Shown here piece after piece: positions 5,441 to 26,768 of a stretch of 26,768 bases of DNA. Position 1 is the stretch's first letter; each line of letters begins with the position of its first letter. Source of the stretch: a virus; the IMG/VR virus record IMGVR_UViG_3300032288_000807, positions 1-26,768 of that record. The stretch is one strand, 5' to 3'. The translations under genes were made by a program, and so were the position numbers. The notes under the pieces were generated by a model that was given only the letters and a program-made list of their open reading frames with translations, was not told the origin of the DNA and did no database searches.

Positions 5441-5704
5441 CTAGTAGTATCTATCTGCTCTTTGGTGAGCGCACGTAGCCTTAGCCAGTACGCCCTTTAG
5501 TCTGCTCTTCGGAGCCGCGACACGCGACAGTCTTTCGGTCAGAGGCACTATCTTCGCCACCTCTCTGCGTGCTGTTGCAGACCTTAGCCACCAGTAGCAC
5601 TTTCCACTCGCATCGCTGTTGCTCTCATTGCCCAATGCGGTGTAGCCCAAAAGAAAAACCCACCTACGGCTGGGCTTCAGACCTCGACGGAAGTGAGCTG
5701 ACAT
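5441..5704 (-). CDS. Doubtful 87-aa frame inside the leader
   Basis: The frame begins at an ATG (MSAHFRRGLKPSRRWVFLL) preceded by GAGAG at ribosome-site distance, and ends just before the replication-like gene. It is very basic (many Arg/Lys). Its start codon lies in arm A' of an inverted repeat and its first 15 codons cross a terminator-like hairpin with a T-run. That composition fits a frame open over structured RNA better than a protein. If translated, it could act as a leader peptide coupled to the attenuator. I have a vague memory of similar frames elsewhere, which I cannot verify. Confidence 0.25.
   Translation of the reverse strand: MSAHFRRGLKPSRRWVFLLGYTALGNESNSDASGKCYWWLRSATARREVAKIVPLTERLSRVAAPKSRLKGVLAKATCAHQRADRYY
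5649..5678 (-). terminator. Terminator-like hairpin with T-run in the leader
   Basis: On the minus strand CCCAGCC-GTA-GGTGGG (5674-5659) forms a six-pair stem with one bulged G. It is followed at once by TTTTTCTTTT (5658-5649), the layout of a Rho-independent terminator. It lies about 120 nt into the transcript from the promoter at 5803-5832, so it would act as an attenuator in front of the leftward operon. Confidence 0.6.
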
Positions 5705-5802: not shown

Positions 5803-5832
5803 TAGAATGGCATAGTCAAGCCACCTTGTCAA
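5803..5832 (-). promoter_or_regulatory. Leftward promoter upstream of the leader
   Basis: On the minus strand TTGACA (5832-5827) is followed after 18 bp by ATTCTA (5808-5803); CATTCT at 17 bp is an alternative -10. The promoter lies just past the end of the exported-protein gene and would start RNA near 5796, at the beginning of the hairpin-rich leader. Confidence 0.6.
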
Positions 5833-5841
5833 CACTTTTTT

Positions 5842-6135
5842 TCATGTGTTTTTTCCTGGCGTTCGCTTGGGCATCAGCGTCCAGTTTTCCAGCGGATAGC
5901 TACGCATCTTGCCGTCGTCAGCCCACACGATATGCACATACAAATCATCAATGAACCAACAGCCGAGAATAGTGTCGGTATTGCCGGTCGTGTAAGCAAT
6001 CTTTCCTTTCTGCGGGTTGCTGCAAGCCTCATCAGTAATGACGATGCGCCCGCCGCCCTTGTTGGTTAAGTAAGCAATGCTCTCGGCCGAAGCCGAGGAC
6101 ATTACCGCCACCATTGCCAGCGCAAGGATTTTCAT
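5842..6135 (-). CDS. Exported small phage protein, 97 aa
   Basis: A signal peptide is visible: MKILALAMVAVMSSASA, with a probable cut after residue 17 (ASA-ES). The mature part (SIAYLTNKGGGRIVITDEACSNPQKGKIAYTT...GCWFIDDLYVHIVWADDGKMRSYPLENW) is strand-rich and has two Cys residues that could form a disulfide in the periplasm. Proteins of this pattern (YLTNKGGGRIVITDE) recur in environmental phages, without known role. It is coupled to the upstream regulator by an ATGA overlap, suggesting expression with the repressor. An envelope role such as exclusion of other phages is only a guess. Confidence 0.75.
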   Translation of the reverse strand: MKILALAMVAVMSSASAESIAYLTNKGGGRIVITDEACSNPQKGKIAYTTGNTDTILGCWFIDDLYVHIVWADDGKMRSYPLENWTLMPKRTPGKNT

Positions 6136-6904: not shown

Positions 6905-7467
6905 GCGTTTACACAAAATTGATGCAAGCAAGGCTGTTCCTGCAAGCCACGAAGTTGAACAAGTCAGGCGAGAACAAGTTTGCCGGGTACAAGTATTTTG
7001 AACTGGGCGACTTTCTGCCTACGGTGCAGGAGATTTTCCACAACCTCGGACTGTGCGGCGTGGTCAGCTTCACCGCCGACATTGCCCGTCTGACGATCAT
7101 CGACACCGAGGATGGCTCGCAGATTGAAATCACATCGCCAATGGGTAGCGCCAACCTCAAGGGATGCCACGAAGTGCAAAATATCGGCGCTGTTGAGTCG
7201 TATCAACGTCGTTATTTGTGGGTTACAGCGATGGAGGTGGTCGAGCATGATCTGCTAGATGCCACTACAGGCAAGGATGCCCCCGCAAAGCGCTTAGATT
7301 CGCTCAACGCGCATTTGGACGTTATCGCTGGCGTTACCACACAGGACGCGCTGAAAACAGCTTACACGCACGCCTATAAAGCCGCCAAGGAACTTAACGA
7401 CACCGAAGCGATGACAGTAATCGTCGCTGCCAAAAATTCCCGCAAAGCAGAACTGGAGGAAGCATGA
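6901..7467 (+). CDS. erf: ERF-family single-strand annealing protein
   Basis: This 188-residue protein of the ERF superfamily (P22 Erf type) anneals complementary single strands in phage recombination. Visible family features are the start MSVYTKLMQARLFLQATKLNKSGENKFAGYKYFELGDFLPTVQEIF and the middle block GSANLKGCHEVQNIGAVESYQRRYLW, where the (G/A)xxxSYxxRY motif is nearly invariant. The ATG at 6901 is preferred over upstream starts because AGGAG lies 7 nt before it and the family N-terminus begins here. It is followed by its partner exonuclease with an ATGA overlap, forming a lambda Red-like module. Confidence 0.93.
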   Translation: MSVYTKLMQARLFLQATKLNKSGENKFAGYKYFELGDFLPTVQEIFHNLGLCGVVSFTADIARLTIIDTEDGSQIEITSPMGSANLKGCHEVQNIGAVESYQRRYLWVTAMEVVEHDLLDATTGKDAPAKRLDSLNAHLDVIAGVTTQDALKTAYTHAYKAAKELNDTEAMTVIVAAKNSRKAELEEA

Positions 7468-8081
7468 AAGTTTTGTCAATGCCGCAAGGCAGTCCCGAAT
7501 GGTTAGCTGCCCGTGCTGGCAAGGTAACGGCTAGTCGGATCAGCGACGTGATGGCGGCTAAGACCACCGCAGCTTACAGGGACTACAAAGCGCAGATCGT
7601 GGCTGAGATTCTGACCGGAGTTCCGCAGGAGTCCGGCTTTGTAAATGACTATATGCGATGGGGTACAGAGCAAGAAAAGTTTGCCCGCGCCGAGTACGAA
7701 ATGTTTTGCGCTTGGACGGTTGATGAGGTCGGGTTAGTCATACATCCAACTATTGAACAGGGTGCAGCTTCGCCTGACGGCTTGGTGTCTACTGACGGCT
7801 TGGTGGAAATTAAGTGCCCCAAGACTTCTACGCACCTGCAAACGCTGGTAGACAAGAAACAGCCTCGTCAGTATGAGAATCAAATGTTGTGGCAAATGGC
7901 TTGCACAGGTCGTGAATGGTGCGACTTTGTATCCTACGATCCGCGTTTGCCTGACGATTTACAGTTGTTTGTTCACCGGTTCGACCGCGATGAGAAACGC
8001 ATCACGGAAATCGAAGCAGCAGTACAGCAGTTCCTGACTGAAGTAAATGAAATGATTGACAAAATCAAGGAGAAAAAATAA
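7464..8081 (+). CDS. YqaJ/lambda-type exonuclease
   Basis: This 205-residue nuclease resects double-strand ends to supply 3' tails to the annealing protein. It has the YqaJ pattern: SPEWLAARAGKVTASRISDVM at 10-30, RWGTEQEKFARAEYE at 65-79, then the catalytic centre SPDGLVSTDGLVEIKCPK with Asp105, Glu115 and Lys117, and the late block RQYENQMLWQMACTG. Length matches the phage form. A strong GGAGGAA ribosome site precedes the ATG, which overlaps the ERF stop. Together with ERF and the SSB-like gene it forms a complete recombination unit. Confidence 0.95.
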   Translation: MKVLSMPQGSPEWLAARAGKVTASRISDVMAAKTTAAYRDYKAQIVAEILTGVPQESGFVNDYMRWGTEQEKFARAEYEMFCAWTVDEVGLVIHPTIEQGAASPDGLVSTDGLVEIKCPKTSTHLQTLVDKKQPRQYENQMLWQMACTGREWCDFVSYDPRLPDDLQLFVHRFDRDEKRITEIEAAVQQFLTEVNEMIDKIKEKK

Positions 8082-8830: not shown

Positions 8831-9148
8831 ATGAACAAAATCGTAATTGATGGTATTGAATATGCGCCCGTTAAAGCCGCAGGAAATCGTGCAGTTGTAG
8901 TGGTGAATTCCGGCTGGATTTTTGCTGGCGATACCGAACAAGTTGATACAGTGGTCGGCAAAAGCATCCGAATTACAAATGCCCTGCATGTGGTTAAGTG
9001 GACTGAAATCGGTTTTGCTGGCGTGATTGCTAACGAAAAAGACAAACGCGTTGATCTGCGTCCCTGTGATCCGGTTGAAGTGCCGCTTGCCTCTGTAATT
9101 TTTATCGTGCCAGTATCTGAAACTTGGGGGCTGCGATGCTTACAGTAG
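8831..9148 (+). CDS. Hypothetical phage protein, 105 aa
   Basis: This is a mainly beta protein: EYAPVKAAGNRAVVVVNSGWIFAGDTEQVDTVVGKSIRITNALHVVKWTEIGFAGVIAN, then VEVPLASVIFIVPVSETWGL. The start at 8831 (MNKIVIDG) follows an AGGTG ribosome site. From memory, proteins with the WIFAG...RITNALHV pattern occur in other phages, also next to Gly-rich repeat genes, but no function is known. Its last 13 bp overlap the start of the Gly-X repeat gene, so the two are probably made together. Confidence 0.7.
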   Translation: MNKIVIDGIEYAPVKAAGNRAVVVVNSGWIFAGDTEQVDTVVGKSIRITNALHVVKWTEIGFAGVIANEKDKRVDLRPCDPVEVPLASVIFIVPVSETWGLRCLQ

Positions 9149-9405
9149 GCGACGGCTTCGGCTACGGCTTAGGAAACGGCTTTGGCAATGGCAACGGCTA
9201 CGGATTCGGAAACGGCTACGGATTCGGCAACGGCTACGGCTTCGGTGACGGCGACGGCTACGGCAACGGCAATGTCTACGGCTTCGGCTACGGCTTAGGA
9301 AACGGCTACGGCTTCGGCAACGGCTACGGCTTCGGTGACGGCTACGGCTTCGGTGACGGCATCGGCAAAGGCTACGGCATCGGCTACAAAACCGTGACTA
9401 TTTAA
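9136..9405 (+). CDS. Gly-X repeat protein, 89 aa
   Basis: From residue 5 to about 84 almost every second residue is Gly, and the residues between are Tyr, Phe, Asn, Asp or Leu. The dominant unit is GNGYGF or GDGYGF, a six-residue (18-bp) period; the DNA shows the matching degenerate repeat (ggcaacggctacggcttc). An extended chain would have Gly on one face and aromatic/polar side chains on the other, as in stacked-strand or silk-like structures. No signal peptide and no Cys are present. ATG at 9136 overlaps the upstream gene. The role is unknown; slippage could change its length quickly. Confidence 0.7.
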   Translation: MLTVGDGFGYGLGNGFGNGNGYGFGNGYGFGNGYGFGDGDGYGNGNVYGFGYGLGNGYGFGNGYGFGDGYGFGDGIGKGYGIGYKTVTI

Positions 9406-13664: not shown

Positions 13665-15380
13665 TTATAACTCCGCAGTTATTTTTATTGTGATAGCCGC
13701 ATCTGTACCATTTGAATATGCAGCAAAATCCTCATAAGAATTTACAATAGTTCCAGTAGTCAAAGTAACTGTTGGATTTGTTCTTTTTGGCAAATGATAC
13801 GAATACATACATCTAGTAACTGTGTTGTATACCGCAATGTTTGCTTGCTCATAATACCGTTGACACAAATCTAACTCAGTTCCATAAGAACGATAGTCAA
13901 AGCTAGTTGCTGTTGAGCCTTTTTCTAGCTGTACGCCTGTGACATACCATGTGGCAGCGTTTGTCCCTACTACGCTGACTGCGCCTGTAGGTGCAGAAAC
14001 TTGCCCGTTATACCAAGCGCCCGCAGTTCCGCTGATTGTTGAACCAACACCGAGACCAAAAGCAACATTTAAACCAATGCCATTTGTCGTTAACCACGTT
14101 CCCGATGTGTCACCCGGAATTGTTACTGAAATCGAAGTCCAAGTATTTGCAGATGAAATAGTGTAGCTAAATGGATAACTTCTTGCAAAACCATTATTAG
14201 TTATTGAACCACCAAATGTGCCGGTTAAACTTGAATACACTTTGAATGATAATGTTATGGGAACAGCATTTGCCGTACCCCAACCAAAATCAGCAATATT
14301 TAATCCTTCAATTAATTGGCAAATTGCAAGAAAATCTGATGCGCCAACAGAATAAGAAGATGAAGATGTTACGCCAAGATAATTTATAAACCCTGTTGGC
14401 GGCGTTACAGAACCCGCATTTTGCTGTACCGTAAATTTTGAAGCTACTGTAGCTCTATAACTAAATCTATCCAATGTATAAGTAAAAGCACTCGTATTTG
14501 TAGCAGTAACACTTGCCCCGGCATTCCTCGCATCAATAATCATCGCACCATTGATGATGCGGTTACGAAAAGCAGGTGTTGAATAATCAAGAATAGCCGT
14601 ACCAGTGTTAGCCGGGAACGTCAGCGTGTTTGTGCCGGAAACAGCAGATGCTGCAACTGTCAGCGTTCCGCTTGTTGATCCATCCATTGTGATGTTGTTG
14701 CTAACAATTTTTACTTTTGTATTGTCTTGCAACAACTTGCCCGTTGTTCCCGAAAATGTAGGAATAGCGTTTGCCGTAGATGATGCAGGGCCAACAACGT
14801 TTCCGCTTGATGCAGCGTTAACAAATTGAAACCGCGTTCCATCGTATTCAATTAACACAACCGCATTTGCAACAATGTCGCCCGCTACAAGAGCAGTCGT
14901 ACCGTTCTTAGTGATCGACTTAACGCCAACGCCGTCAATGTTGATTGTGACTGCGCCAGTATTTGTATTTGCAGCAACAAACGAGAACAGATTGCCCGCA
15001 GCGTAAGCCGTCAGCGCGGGAGTGACTGAGCCAATCAGGGTATCAGTACCGCTAACAGTTACTAGCTTGTCGGTATTGCTCTGAATTTGCCCATATTGAA
15101 CTGCATCAGTCCCTACCGTAGCAGCGCCAAGACCTGTGATCTTAAAGCCTGCCATTGGAATGTTTGCAGTTACAGTCGTCTGACCGTCTTTAGTGATAGC
15201 CGTAGAAAGACCGGTCGCTAAGTCCGAAGTCAGCGCGTTAAACGCGGTCGAACTAATGACTGTGCCCGCTACGACAGGTTGCCCCGTTGTATTGATCTGA
15301 AAAACACCGCTGCCATTGTAGCTCAAAGTTGCATCTCCCGTGAATAAGGCATAAACTGTCGATTTGACAGGAGATGCCAA
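13665..15380 (-). CDS. Tail fibre / receptor-binding protein
   Basis: This protein of about 571 residues is rich in Thr, Ser, Ala and Gly. The N-terminal third (STAFNALTSDLATGLSTAITKDGQTTVTANIPMAGFKITGLG) is typical of podovirus fibre shafts. The C-terminal part has RNRIINGAMIIDARNAG, ...YTLDRFSY..., WYVTGVQLEKGS, then DYRSYGTELDLCQRYYE, the carbohydrate-binding-like jelly-roll head common in environmental phage fibres. It binds the host surface. The frame has no ATG near its beginning; the only candidate is a TTG at 15380 four codons after a stop, and that base is also the start of an opposing HNH gene. The original 5' end may therefore have been altered. Confidence 0.85.
   Translation of the reverse strand: MASPVKSTVYALFTGDATLSYNGSGVFQINTTGQPVVAGTVISSTAFNALTSDLATGLSTAITKDGQTTVTANIPMAGFKITGLGAATVGTDAVQYGQIQSNTDKLVTVSGTDTLIGSVTPALTAYAAGNLFSFVAANTNTGAVTINIDGVGVKSITKNGTTALVAGDIVANAVVLIEYDGTRFQFVNAASSGNVVGPASSTANAIPTFSGTTGKLLQDNTKVKIVSNNITMDGSTSGTLTVAASAVSGTNTLTFPANTGTAILDYSTPAFRNRIINGAMIIDARNAGASVTATNTSAFTYTLDRFSYRATVASKFTVQQNAGSVTPPTGFINYLGVTSSSSYSVGASDFLAICQLIEGLNIADFGWGTANAVPITLSFKVYSSLTGTFGGSITNNGFARSYPFSYTISSANTWTSISVTIPGDTSGTWLTTNGIGLNVAFGLGVGSTISGTAGAWYNGQVSAPTGAVSVVGTNAATWYVTGVQLEKGSTATSFDYRSYGTELDLCQRYYEQANIAVYNTVTRCMYSYHLPKRTNPTVTLTTGTIVNSYEDFAAYSNGTDAAITIKITAEL
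15329..15357 (+). promoter_or_regulatory. Possible promoter of the antisense HNH gene
   Basis: TTGCAT (15329-15334) and TAAACT (15352-15357) are 17 bp apart, each matching 4 of 6 consensus bases, and lie 22 nt before the HNH ATG. An AGGAG ribosome site follows at 15369-15373. The promoter would fire from inside the tail-fibre gene in the opposite direction. Confidence 0.35.
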
Positions 15381-15937
15381 TGACTTACCAAGTCAACAAA
15401 GTAATACCGTGTTCCCAATGCGGAAAGCCTTCCGTAGCGCGTCATCTATGCCGCTCCCATTACAACGAAGCATGGCGCAATAAGGAATTGTCTCAGCATT
15501 CGGAAGTTACCGTTTACGAATCGTTTGATGCCAAAGTCAAAAAAACTAACAGTTGTTGGCTTTGGACTGGAACAAAAAATGGCGATGGCTATGGCATTAT
15601 TTTGATTGGCGGCAAAAATATACGTGCTCACAGATTTTCTTATGAAAGATTTGTTGGCAAAATACCTACCGGCAAAATAATTATGCACAGATGCGATACC
15701 CCTGCTTGCGTAAATCCTAATCATTTGCAAGTAGGCACTAAGGCTGAAAATAACGCTGATACCGCAAACAAAAGACGACATAACTACGGGCTTGACCATT
15801 GGAACGGTCGCCTTTCCGCGCAAGACATTGATGCAATTCGACAAAGCACTGAAGTGCATCGCATTCTTGCCGAACGTTATGGTGTTAATCAGAGCCATAT
15901 CAGTCGAATCAAATCAGGGCAAGCGCACAAACCATAG
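15380..15937 (+). CDS. HNH homing-type endonuclease with C-terminal HTH, 185 aa
   Basis: This protein is encoded against the direction of all neighbours. Its N-terminus holds a zinc-binding pattern (CSQCGKP at 11-17, then CRSH at 24-27). The centre is an HNH_3-type core: CWLWTGTKNGDGYG at 59-72, AHRFSYERFVG at 83-93, MHRCDTPACVNPNHLQVGT with His103 and His115. The C-terminus is a helix-turn-helix for DNA binding (RILAERYGVNQSHISRIKSG). It cuts DNA at a target site to spread its own gene. AGGAG lies 6 nt before the ATG at 15380. It ends one base before the stop of the ejection-protein gene, filling the gap exactly. Confidence 0.92.
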   Translation: MTYQVNKVIPCSQCGKPSVARHLCRSHYNEAWRNKELSQHSEVTVYESFDAKVKKTNSCWLWTGTKNGDGYGIILIGGKNIRAHRFSYERFVGKIPTGKIIMHRCDTPACVNPNHLQVGTKAENNADTANKRRHNYGLDHWNGRLSAQDIDAIRQSTEVHRILAERYGVNQSHISRIKSGQAHKP

Positions 15938-23867: not shown

Positions 23868-24233
23868 TTAGGTTTTCGTGCCGTTGATGCTGTACCAAAT
23901 ACTATTCGTTACTGCAAAAAAAATGCTTGTGTGATCTTTATTGATCGTTGCCGAAGTCGTTTGATTGATCGTTGACGTTGATTCATACGGGTAAACCGTC
24001 AATGTACTAGCGCCGGAATTAACCACGAAAATCACTTCCCCCATTTCAGTCTGAGGAAGTTTTACGCCAGTTCCCGAAGTTACCGTATCAACAGAGTTGA
24101 AAACCGCCGTCAGTTGCTTGGCATCGGCTCTCGTCGATCCTGTGGCGACAATGTCGTCCTTACCATCTCCACATATAGAGACAGTCGATAGCTGATTTAC
24201 ACCTGAACCAAGAACCCGCGACGGGATAGACAT
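23868..24233 (-). CDS. Small beta-rich virion-like protein, 121 aa (tandem paralog 1)
   Basis: It is homologous to the next upstream gene over its whole length: both begin IPSRVL, share a (G)ICGD... block, LTAVFNS/LSAVFNA, TGVKLPQTEMGE/TGVKLPPTEAGA, then VYP and a Phe-Phe-Ala strand at the end. The fold looks like a small beta-barrel or sandwich, similar in size to capsid decoration proteins. Position between adaptor-region genes and the modification cassette fits a virion protein. It shares one base (TAATG) with its paralog. Confidence 0.7.
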   Translation of the reverse strand: MSIPSRVLGSGVNQLSTVSICGDGKDDIVATGSTRADAKQLTAVFNSVDTVTSGTGVKLPQTEMGEVIFVVNSGASTLTVYPYESTSTINQTTSATINKDHTSIFFAVTNSIWYSINGTKT

Positions 24234-24592
24234 TAGGCAGTAGTAACAGAAGCCCAGGTCGTTGCGCTTGTAGCAAAGAACAGCGCAGCTTTGCCATCAG
24301 CAAGGTCAACGCTTGCAGCGGCTGCATTGATCGTCGAGCTAGTCGCAGGATAAACCTTGATCGTCTGCCCCGATGCGTTCCAAATACCCACCATTGCACC
24401 GGCTTCGGTCGGCGGCAGCTTCACACCAGTTGAGGCTGCGGAAGTCGTGATCGCATTGAAAACAGCCGACAGTTGCAGAGCCGTTCCAGCAGTTGAACCG
24501 ACAGCAACAAGACCAGTGGCGGTATCGCCGCAGATCGTCGTTGACGACAGCGGAGAGTTACCGGCAGCCAAAACTCGTGACGGAATAGCCAT
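24233..24592 (-). CDS. Small beta-rich virion-like protein, 119 aa (tandem paralog 2)
   Basis: This is the upstream member of the pair (MAIPSRVLAAGNSPLSSTTICGDTATGLVAVGSTAG...). It has more Ala and fewer charged residues than its partner, and the central block STGVKLPPTEAGAMVGIWNASGQTIKVYPATSSTINAAA is the best-conserved part. Both probably arose by tandem duplication. A decoration or fibre-base role is a guess from size and context. Confidence 0.7.
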   Translation of the reverse strand: MAIPSRVLAAGNSPLSSTTICGDTATGLVAVGSTAGTALQLSAVFNAITTSAASTGVKLPPTEAGAMVGIWNASGQTIKVYPATSSTINAAAASVDLADGKAALFFATSATTWASVTTA

Positions 24593-24594
24593 GA

Positions 24595-25080
24595 TTACTC
24601 CTTAGATTTGCTGCCAACGACGCGAAGATCGCGCTGCGGCAAGTGGAAAAATGGTTCTTCAAAACGTACATTCTCAAAACCTGCTTCAACTAACATCGTG
24701 CCAATTTGCTGTTTTGAGTAACACCAATGGTGACGCATCGTATCAGGTTCGGGCATTCCGAACAATGCACGCCCGATCAAATCGTCATTCCTGTGCCCTT
24801 GATTCCATAGCGCAATCACGTTATCAAGGCATGGCATCTCGAGCGACAACTGACCGCCCGGCTTCAATACTCGCAACCATTCAAGCAACGTTTGTTTCGC
24901 TTTGGGTGTCGGGATATGCTCAAACAAATGTATCGCGGAAATCTCGTCGGCATGATCATCCGGCAAATCAAGTTCTGTTACATCCGAAATCAAGTCTTGC
25001 TCGCCAATGCAATCAACATTGATCCAGCCTGGCCAAGACCTATCGCCTGCCCCTAGATGGAGTCGAATACGCTCTGCCAT
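24595..25080 (-). CDS. SAM-dependent methyltransferase, 161 aa
   Basis: This is a class I methyltransferase of the small phage type. LHLGAGDRSWPGWINVDC at residues 7-24 is the SAM-binding loop in the form used by methyltransferases near sugar-modifying enzymes. It is followed by DVTELDLPDDHADEISAIHLFEHI (acidic loop and motif II) and LKPGGQLSLEMP (motif III). The start at 25080 (MAERIRLHL) was chosen because the family motif begins here and the overlap with the glycosyltransferase gene is then only 28 bp. The acceptor could be a sugar, a protein or a nucleotide. Confidence 0.85.
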   Translation of the reverse strand: MAERIRLHLGAGDRSWPGWINVDCIGEQDLISDVTELDLPDDHADEISAIHLFEHIPTPKAKQTLLEWLRVLKPGGQLSLEMPCLDNVIALWNQGHRNDDLIGRALFGMPEPDTMRHHWCYSKQQIGTMLVEAGFENVRFEEPFFHLPQRDLRVVGSKSKE

Positions 25081-25880
25081 TTGCGCCCCAATGTTTCCGG
25101 TGAATAGTGCTGCTGAATGTATTGCTGTCCTGCCCTTACCAAAGCGTTCAATTCGTGTTTGTAGGCTTGCGAGAACTGAAGCCCACCCTTTAGCGGCCCA
25201 AGGTAACAAAAGTGCCTGAATTCCTTGTTTATATCAATCTTACTGGCGATTACAAAGCAACCCGCCATGATTGCATTGATGAGCCGGTTCGCGCTTTTGT
25301 AGGTTTCTTCCTTGCTAGGCAATAAAACAATGTTGCTTTGCCGCAAAAGCTGCTCTTGGGCGGCTGTAGACCACGGCACGCACTCAACCTGATCGTTCGG
25401 CCCTGTGCAGTACGTCATATCGTACGGCTTCAGCATCTTCCCATAGGGCAATATTTCTTTCAGATTGCTTTGATGCCCTAGCCACAAATATTTGTTACCG
25501 TCTGCGTGGGGTTGACCGCTATTCTCCCAAGTGTCGGGGATTACTTGGGCATCTTTTTCCGCATAGACGCGGATTCGTCGCGCCATTTCCGCAGTCGGGC
25601 ACACTACGGCATCAGCTTTTTGAGCCATTTCCGCATAAATTTCCCCTAGCTTTGGGTGCGTGAAATGATCGTCGCAAATGTCTACCACCGCTTTTGCGCC
25701 CCTAGCTTGCACCTGCTCAAACACCACTAAATCGTCGGGCTGCGGCTTGGAAAACACCGTGATATCAGCGCCCGTTGCATTCAGTCTTGAGTGATAACCG
25801 CAGTACGCCGAAGGCATAGCCGCCCTCAGTCGGTAGGATGCCATCTCAGCACCGCCGCTGTGCATGAATGAAACTCTCAT
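25053..25880 (-). CDS. Glycosyltransferase-like protein (GT-B type), 275 aa
   Basis: The protein resembles GT4-like phage glycosyltransferases. The N-terminal domain has MASYRLRAAMPSAYCG, DLVVFEQVQARGAKAVVDICDDHFTHPKLGEIYAEMAQKADAVVCPTAEMARRI, typical of the acceptor side. The C-terminal domain has KYLWLGHQSNLKEI, IVLLPSKEETYKSANRLINAIMAGCFVIAS, equivalent to the donor-binding part, where the usual Glu is in KEETYKSANR. Donor and acceptor are unknown. Its position among virion genes suggests decoration of a virion protein or of the host surface. Confidence 0.75.
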   Translation of the reverse strand: MRVSFMHSGGAEMASYRLRAAMPSAYCGYHSRLNATGADITVFSKPQPDDLVVFEQVQARGAKAVVDICDDHFTHPKLGEIYAEMAQKADAVVCPTAEMARRIRVYAEKDAQVIPDTWENSGQPHADGNKYLWLGHQSNLKEILPYGKMLKPYDMTYCTGPNDQVECVPWSTAAQEQLLRQSNIVLLPSKEETYKSANRLINAIMAGCFVIASKIDINKEFRHFCYLGPLKGGLQFSQAYKHELNALVRAGQQYIQQHYSPETLGRKWQSVFDSI

Positions 25881-26668
25881 ACTCGCTTTCCGAGGCGTTT
25901 TCGCTCGTCCATGATTGCTGCGATTAGACCGCCGCCATGCACGTTGAAATGAATGTCAGGCAACGTCTTAAAGTATTCTTGAAATTCGTTTGCTTGCTGC
26001 GCCATTGCGCCATTCGACAAGAACCGCTTACCACCGACGATCACATCAATCGGTTCGTCTACGCCCTCGCCTGTGAATCGCTTAGTCTTGCCGTCATCTG
26101 CTAGGCAAGAGTCGAAACCGTACATCTCAAACGTTCTGAAACCTAGAACATAGCTTACCGACACCGCACGAAGTCCTGATGTAGTGCCACCGCCGACAAG
26201 AAACTTCTTGTTGAAGATGCTGCGATACGGTTCGTCGTTGTATTCTTCAAACGCAAACGAGTGCCACAAAATGACCTTGTTTGCTTTCAGCGCGTCAAAC
26301 ATTGACGGATCGCACCTAGAAGCCACTAGATAGACCGTATGCGCGTTTGCTTCGCTTAGCTGTGCGCTTCTATCTCGCGGGTCAACACAGCACCATAAAT
26401 CGGGCTGTATGCCGTTCTTGCAGAGAAAATCATGCGCTCCCTTGACTGCAAATATCGGGCGACCGCGTGCGCGTTCTGCTCGTATATTTTCAATCTGAGA
26501 TGGCATAGAAGGCCCACTACCCACGACGACCATGTGACCGTCGTGAGCAATGAGACTTGGTACTAGTTCCGGTAAACCCCGCGCAATCGCAGAGCGAATG
26601 TTAGACACAATGCCATCAGGTGTTCCTGCGGCTTTAACATTGACTTTTAATTGCGCGAGATTTTCCAT
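25877..26668 (-). CDS. DUF115 / MAF-type protein, 263 aa
   Basis: The core is GHMVVVGSGPSMPSQIENIRAERARGRPIFAVKGAHDFLCKNGIQPDLWCCVDPRD, followed by VYLVASRCDPSMFDAL, KFLVGGGTTSGLRAVSVSYVLGFRTFEMYGFDSCLADD. This matches DUF115/MAF, the family that includes proteins transferring sialic-acid-like sugars to flagellin and the archaeal pterin enzyme MptE. The start at 26668 shares one base (TAATG) with the preceding gene. The phage form is shorter than bacterial MAF proteins. It probably works with the adjacent glycosyltransferase and methyltransferase. Confidence 0.85.
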   Translation of the reverse strand: MENLAQLKVNVKAAGTPDGIVSNIRSAIARGLPELVPSLIAHDGHMVVVGSGPSMPSQIENIRAERARGRPIFAVKGAHDFLCKNGIQPDLWCCVDPRDRSAQLSEANAHTVYLVASRCDPSMFDALKANKVILWHSFAFEEYNDEPYRSIFNKKFLVGGGTTSGLRAVSVSYVLGFRTFEMYGFDSCLADDGKTKRFTGEGVDEPIDVIVGGKRFLSNGAMAQQANEFQEYFKTLPDIHFNVHGGGLIAAIMDERKRLGKRV

Positions 26669-26768
26669 TAGCCAGGCATTGCACCTGTGCCGATAACCGC
26701 GATGCCAGCAGCGATACAAGTAACTGCCGTGGCATTGGAGATCGTGCGGGTCGAAGTGCAGCCGATAA
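26668..26768 (-). CDS. C-terminal end of a structural-block protein, cut by window edge
   Basis: The last 32 codons are visible, with the ending RTISNATAVTCIAAGIAVIGTGAMPG, rich in Ala, Gly, Ile and Thr. This strand-rich ending is, from memory, typical of short proteins near capsid genes of environmental podoviruses. Its stop codon overlaps the DUF115 gene start (TAATG). The main part lies to the right of the window; no function can be given. Confidence 0.6.
   Translation of the reverse strand, partial: IGCTSTRTISNATAVTCIAAGIAVIGTGAMPG

Follow-up and report, generated by a model that had tools for sequence, protein, structure and literature searches.

The DNA analysed here, a 26,768-bp virus fragment from IMG/VR (the window), carries three consecutive genes on its minus strand: a DUF115/MptE-like gene (25877-26668; 263 aa; PF01973), a gene for a putative GT-B-type glycosyltransferase (GT; 25053-25880; 275 aa; weak matches to Glyco_transf_4 and Glyco_trans_1_4) and a gene for a class I SAM methyltransferase (MT; 24595-25080; 161 aa; Methyltransf_23). 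DUF115 and GT overlap by 4 nt, GT and MT by 28 nt; the three adjacent, overlapping genes that a preliminary description had placed at 24595-26668 are exact to the base. Downstream on the same strand lie b1 (24233-24592), encoding a small beta-rich protein of 119 aa that we considered as an alternative acceptor, and its paralogue b2 (23868-24233; 121 aa, 44% identical to b1). The copy number of this tandem varies (window 23868-24592; L194:9558-10385). On the upstream side the window ends 100 bases past the DUF115 start codon, and those bases are the end of a further minus-strand gene, dec (26671-26768, the last 32 codons), for a predicted capsid decoration protein and our proposed glycan acceptor. 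Cut by the window's edge and overlooked in the preliminary description, dec is the most informative neighbour of the cassette.

Relatives of the window show the gene order TerL-portal-scaffold-MCP-dec-DUF115-GT-MT-b1/b2-tail, which bears out the earlier placement of the cassette within the virion operon. The carriers form a family of freshwater phages, and 342 IMG/VR stretches encode DUF115 relatives. The cassette is not a chance arrangement, because dozens of distinct contigs keep the DUF115-GT-MT block in synteny (gene-order table of the relatives) and dN/dS values are low (0.01-0.06 for DUF115 and MT, 0.05-0.18 for GT). All three genes are under strong purifying selection. Searching 50,697 cultured phages with tblastn gave no match for DUF115, GT or dec and a single, partial match for MT. 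Elsewhere on the plus strand of the window are a 93-aa open reading frame made almost wholly of GYG/GNG repeats (9124-9405) and, opposite to and between two late virion genes, an HNH_3 endonuclease gene (15374-15937). In some relatives a group I intron (RF00028; L004:6135-6356, L006:4088-4307, L028:7716-7937) splits the MCP gene; the MCP gene of L004 also contains a further non-coding gap, near 5829-6054, and in L005 a GIY-YIG endonuclease reading frame sits just upstream of the capsid exon.

The DUF115 protein matches the Pfam family MptE-like (PF01973, formerly DUF115) at 2.9e-21. The preliminary description had proposed comparing its predicted structure with MAF enzymes. The AF2 model (pLDDT 89) indeed finds its best PDB match in the Magnetospirillum Maf 5MU5 (Z 21.0 over 217 residues, 3.0 A), followed by the archaeal HPPK 8SD5 (Z 16.6), SteA (11.6) and sialyltransferases of families GT42 and GT29 (7-9.5). 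The G-x-G-P-S loop and the G-I-x-P-D and G-F-R...G-x-D motifs align with those of Maf. The protein is thus predicted to comprise the central MAF_flag10/PF01973 catalytic domain, with its sialyltransferase-like fold, and from the model we hold a Maf-like fold to be almost certain. It shares this fold and the motifs with the Maf flagellin glycosyltransferases of Magnetospirillum (5MU5), Aeromonas (Maf1) and Clostridium, and, as DUF115 lies beside dec, those enzymes work beside their own protein substrate. In contrast to Maf, the 263-aa protein consists of the catalytic domain only, aligning to residues 244-499 of 5MU5 and lacking the N-terminal Rossmann-like and C-terminal helical domains; it is encoded in a phage virion operon rather than in a flagellar context, and its partner is dec instead of flagellin. 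Since the outer domains are missing, we speak of a Maf-like catalytic domain and not of a Maf; the label "MAF protein" used initially was too strong. Maf binds flagellin directly and glycosylates Ser/Thr residues in the cytoplasm (PMC4065374); it takes CMP-activated donors, CMP-Kdo besides nonulosonates, and leaves non-cognate flagellins unmodified (PMC11339370). A DUF115 profile run against bacterial genomes found no relative directly; a search of bacterial genomes with the MCP brought in phage contigs with diverged DUF115 genes.

The relative L004 has a complete dec gene (7171-7650), and the fragment in the window is identical to its codons 129-160. Complete genes in relatives have 160 codons and lie directly behind the MCP gene. 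An AlphaFold (AF2) model of the full-length protein from relatives (46 sequences, pLDDT 86) has as its top structural matches only phage decoration, cement and head-fibre-base proteins: 7kmx (XM1, Z 12.1), 8qsy (HFTV1, 11.6), 8hdt (Pam3, 11.2), proteins of T1 and Sf11, phi29 gp8.5 (9.4) and TW1 (8.5). Lambda gpD scores Z 4.8. HMM comparison shows homology of dec to p49 of Mx8, which bears the annotation "virion structural protein", and phrog_29386 (virion structural protein) was matched by all nine dec members compared; a sequence search of the PDB with the dec profile gave no match. Serine and threonine together make up about 21% of the protein. The predicted decoration/cement fold, combined with the position behind the MCP, makes dec very probably a capsid decoration protein.

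When dec was used as bait, the next gene was DUF115 in each of the 77 loci that could be read (three more were truncated), a figure that concerns this dec subtype, since the bait came from DUF115-bearing loci; more distant dec proteins occur without DUF115 in Mx8, RHph_I3_18, the Pandoraea prophage L245 and L247. Among close relatives the dec-DUF115 pair comes in two allele types, A (found in the window) and B. Comparing the two types gives 61-64% identity for dec and 54-56% for DUF115, against 84-99% for scaffold, MCP and tail genes; DNA identity drops where dec begins and returns to the higher level where DUF115 ends or shortly past it, with sharp edges. Type-A dec was found with type-A DUF115 in 12/12 contigs, type-B dec with type-B DUF115 in 18/18, and mixed pairs in none. 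In L012, type-A dec and DUF115 have 96% and 92% DNA identity and the surrounding backbone 85-87%, a pattern that a transfer of the pair would give. In the group L240-L243 the MCP is 90% identical and the gene order is kept, with DUF115 only 25-33% identical; dec is about 20% identical in L240 and L243, and that of L242 was not resolved. These comparisons indicate that dec and DUF115 are swapped as a unit.

Partial Mantel correlations gave 0.70 for DUF115-dec (p 0.0005), 0.19 for DUF115-GT, 0.63 for GT-MT and 0.62 for MT-dec. Distance alone is argued against as the cause of the dec-DUF115 linkage, because GT overlaps DUF115 and is physically at least as close to it as dec. Linkage of neighbouring genes can stem from recombination alone, and MT, too, correlates with dec; recombination hot spots could contribute. 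A specificity like that of Maf for its cognate flagellin would explain why dec and DUF115 are exchanged as a pair.

The remaining two enzymes behave differently. For GT, the window copy matches Glyco_trans_1_4 weakly (1e-3, below the gathering cut-off) and its relatives match Glyco_transf_4 (1.3e-4), so that both the N- and the C-terminal domain of a GT-B enzyme are matched. A D-x-C-D-D-H motif is invariant and a K-S-x-N-R motif near-invariant in the family. A PDB sequence search with the GT profile gave no match; the weak profile matches suggest a GT-B (GT4-like) glycosyltransferase. MT matches Methyltransf_23 above the cut-off (8.8e-9) and has the SAM motif I and the acidic loop of class I SAM methyltransferases, L-x-L-G-x-G and N-x-D being kept in 11 members. 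Contig ends excepted, GT and MT occur together or not at all; one further locus, L088, has an MT alone, and this methyltransferase is unrelated. In the gene-order table, about 54 dec-DUF115 loci lack GT/MT; of those that have the two genes, about 30 also carry b1 and 12 do not. It follows from these counts that GT and MT are an optional pair with no need for b1. A neighbourhood survey, as proposed in the preliminary description, finds DUF115 constant behind dec of this subtype and GT and MT paired, with the latter two optional beside DUF115. The DUF115 enzyme is not tied to the tandem small beta proteins to which that description had pointed: b1/b2 occur without GT/MT, and GT/MT without b1. 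This distribution rules out b1/b2 as obligate partners of GT/MT.

Other relatives carry other enzymes in the same slot: GT8 enzymes, a NovU-type sugar C-methyltransferase in L082 (Methyltransf_13/14, 6.7e-24) and a second MT in L180. DUF115-methyltransferase fusions are found in L243, L246 and also L177, where the fusion matches cultured phages solely through its methyltransferase half. The fused protein of L177 (971-2389) is a second DUF115 protein encoded upstream of the scaffold gene; it adjoins a Ser/Ala/Asn-rich protein of 323 aa, perhaps another enzyme-acceptor pair. This recurrence of sugar and methyl chemistry at one site speaks more strongly than any other evidence here for a methylated glycan, which we regard as plausible.

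The reading we favour, and consider reasonably probable, is that of a phage virion glycosylation module, in which the Maf-like enzyme O-glycosylates its cognate dec, GT extends the glycan and MT methylates it. Glycosyltransferases, methyltransferases and Maf/sialyltransferase-like enzymes also act in the synthesis of surface polysaccharides, and the cassette might instead modify host LPS or capsule late in infection, blocking superinfection or freeing progeny from receptor-bearing debris. The preliminary description had offered both virion proteins and host surface glycans as targets. The link of dec to DUF115 supports the virion option; the host option is not favoured and strikes us as quite unlikely, the DUF115 gene being locked to dec and swapping with it, and the genes belonging to the late virion operon, away from early and lysogeny genes. 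The virion could also be glycosylated in another way, with b1/b2 or the tail as the acceptor of GT and MT, and dec at most a substrate of DUF115. The position of b1/b2 directly downstream and the weak correlation of GT with DUF115 agree with this, as does a BclA_C-like C-terminal domain (4.6e-4, below cut-off) in the 275-aa b versions of some relatives, proteins whose build resembles an anchor with a knob, as in a head fibre or tail fibre. We nevertheless judge it unlikely: b1 is present in every locus that lacks GT/MT and extends to c188, it is missing from the dozen or so GT/MT loci counted above, and MT distances follow those of dec.

The Pfam name MptE-like raises a further alternative, namely that DUF115 encodes a pterin diphosphokinase (MptE) or some other non-sugar enzyme, the three genes being metabolic cargo without a virion target. 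Archaeal MptE (6-hydroxymethylpterin diphosphokinase, 8SD5) belongs to the same Pfam family, has the same fold and is the second structural match; yet it is farther from the DUF115 protein than Maf, the window proteins that were examined revealed no pterin gene, and it is sugar enzymes that gather in the cassette's slot. We find this alternative very improbable. In its strict MptE form it was set aside on the closeness of Maf and the absence of a pterin context.

In the virion glycosylation module proposed here, the DUF115 enzyme would transfer a first sugar onto Ser/Thr residues of dec in the cytoplasm, late in infection, either ahead of capsid assembly or in the course of it. None of the genes examined was recognised as a sugar-nucleotide gene, so the host has to supply the donor, which would probably be a CMP-activated sugar such as CMP-Kdo or a CMP-nonulosonate. 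A Betaproteobacteria-1 RNA in the window (RF02932, 76.5 bits; 5522-5642, minus strand) and the Pandoraea prophage relative suggest a betaproteobacterial host. Betaproteobacterial hosts make CMP-Kdo. Where present, GT would add a further sugar and MT a methyl cap, the outcome being a sugar-coated capsid whose type of glycan changes upon exchange of the dec/enzyme pair. We infer here the protein modification itself together with its acceptor, donor, order of steps, sugar methylation and benefit. Modification of dec by the DUF115 protein seems likely to us; for GT and MT working on that same glycan the chances are about even. More tentatively, with odds somewhat short of even, phages of an Mx8-related lineage may inherit their capsid glycotype through interchangeable pairs of dec and cognate Maf-like transferase, each pair being exchanged whole; optional genes for GT, MT, GT8 and a sugar C-methyltransferase would then add variety to the capsid glycan, in the way that O-antigen loci do for bacteria.

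To our knowledge, glycosylation of virion proteins is known in few phages only, mostly mycobacteriophages. In Che8, Corndog and Myrna, phage-encoded glycosyltransferases decorate capsid or tail proteins (Freeman 2023, as relayed in PMC12619734 and PMC12363180). Those systems likewise rely on enzymes of the phage, in another phage group and other hosts; neither a Maf-type enzyme nor a link to a decoration protein is mentioned in those two papers. The structural module of Mx8 (p45-p56) is among the nearest known counterparts. Its genes follow the same order, its portal, scaffold, MCP, dec (p49) and tail genes are homologous, and a GNAT-type acyltransferase occupies the corresponding position, but no DUF115, GT or MT gene lies behind p49. 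A study of the Mx8-like podovirus structural module does not mention glycosylation (PMC10386132), and our search of the open-access literature brought up no account of a DUF115/MptE-like enzyme that acts on phage virions. The initial remark that no function had been described for this gene combination in podoviruses agrees with the literature searched, virion glycosylation as such being known, and the pairing of a Maf-type enzyme with a decoration protein seems not to have been described so far.

A compact Maf domain of about 260 residues together with a small acceptor would be useful for glycoengineering. If the proposed function is correct, capsid sugar coats would be widespread, extending over several hundred environmental contigs; they would evolve by paired exchange and use the chemistry of flagellin glycosylation. 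The purpose of capsid glycans would then become testable, whether it has to do with grazers, adhesion to mucus or cells, stability or evasion.
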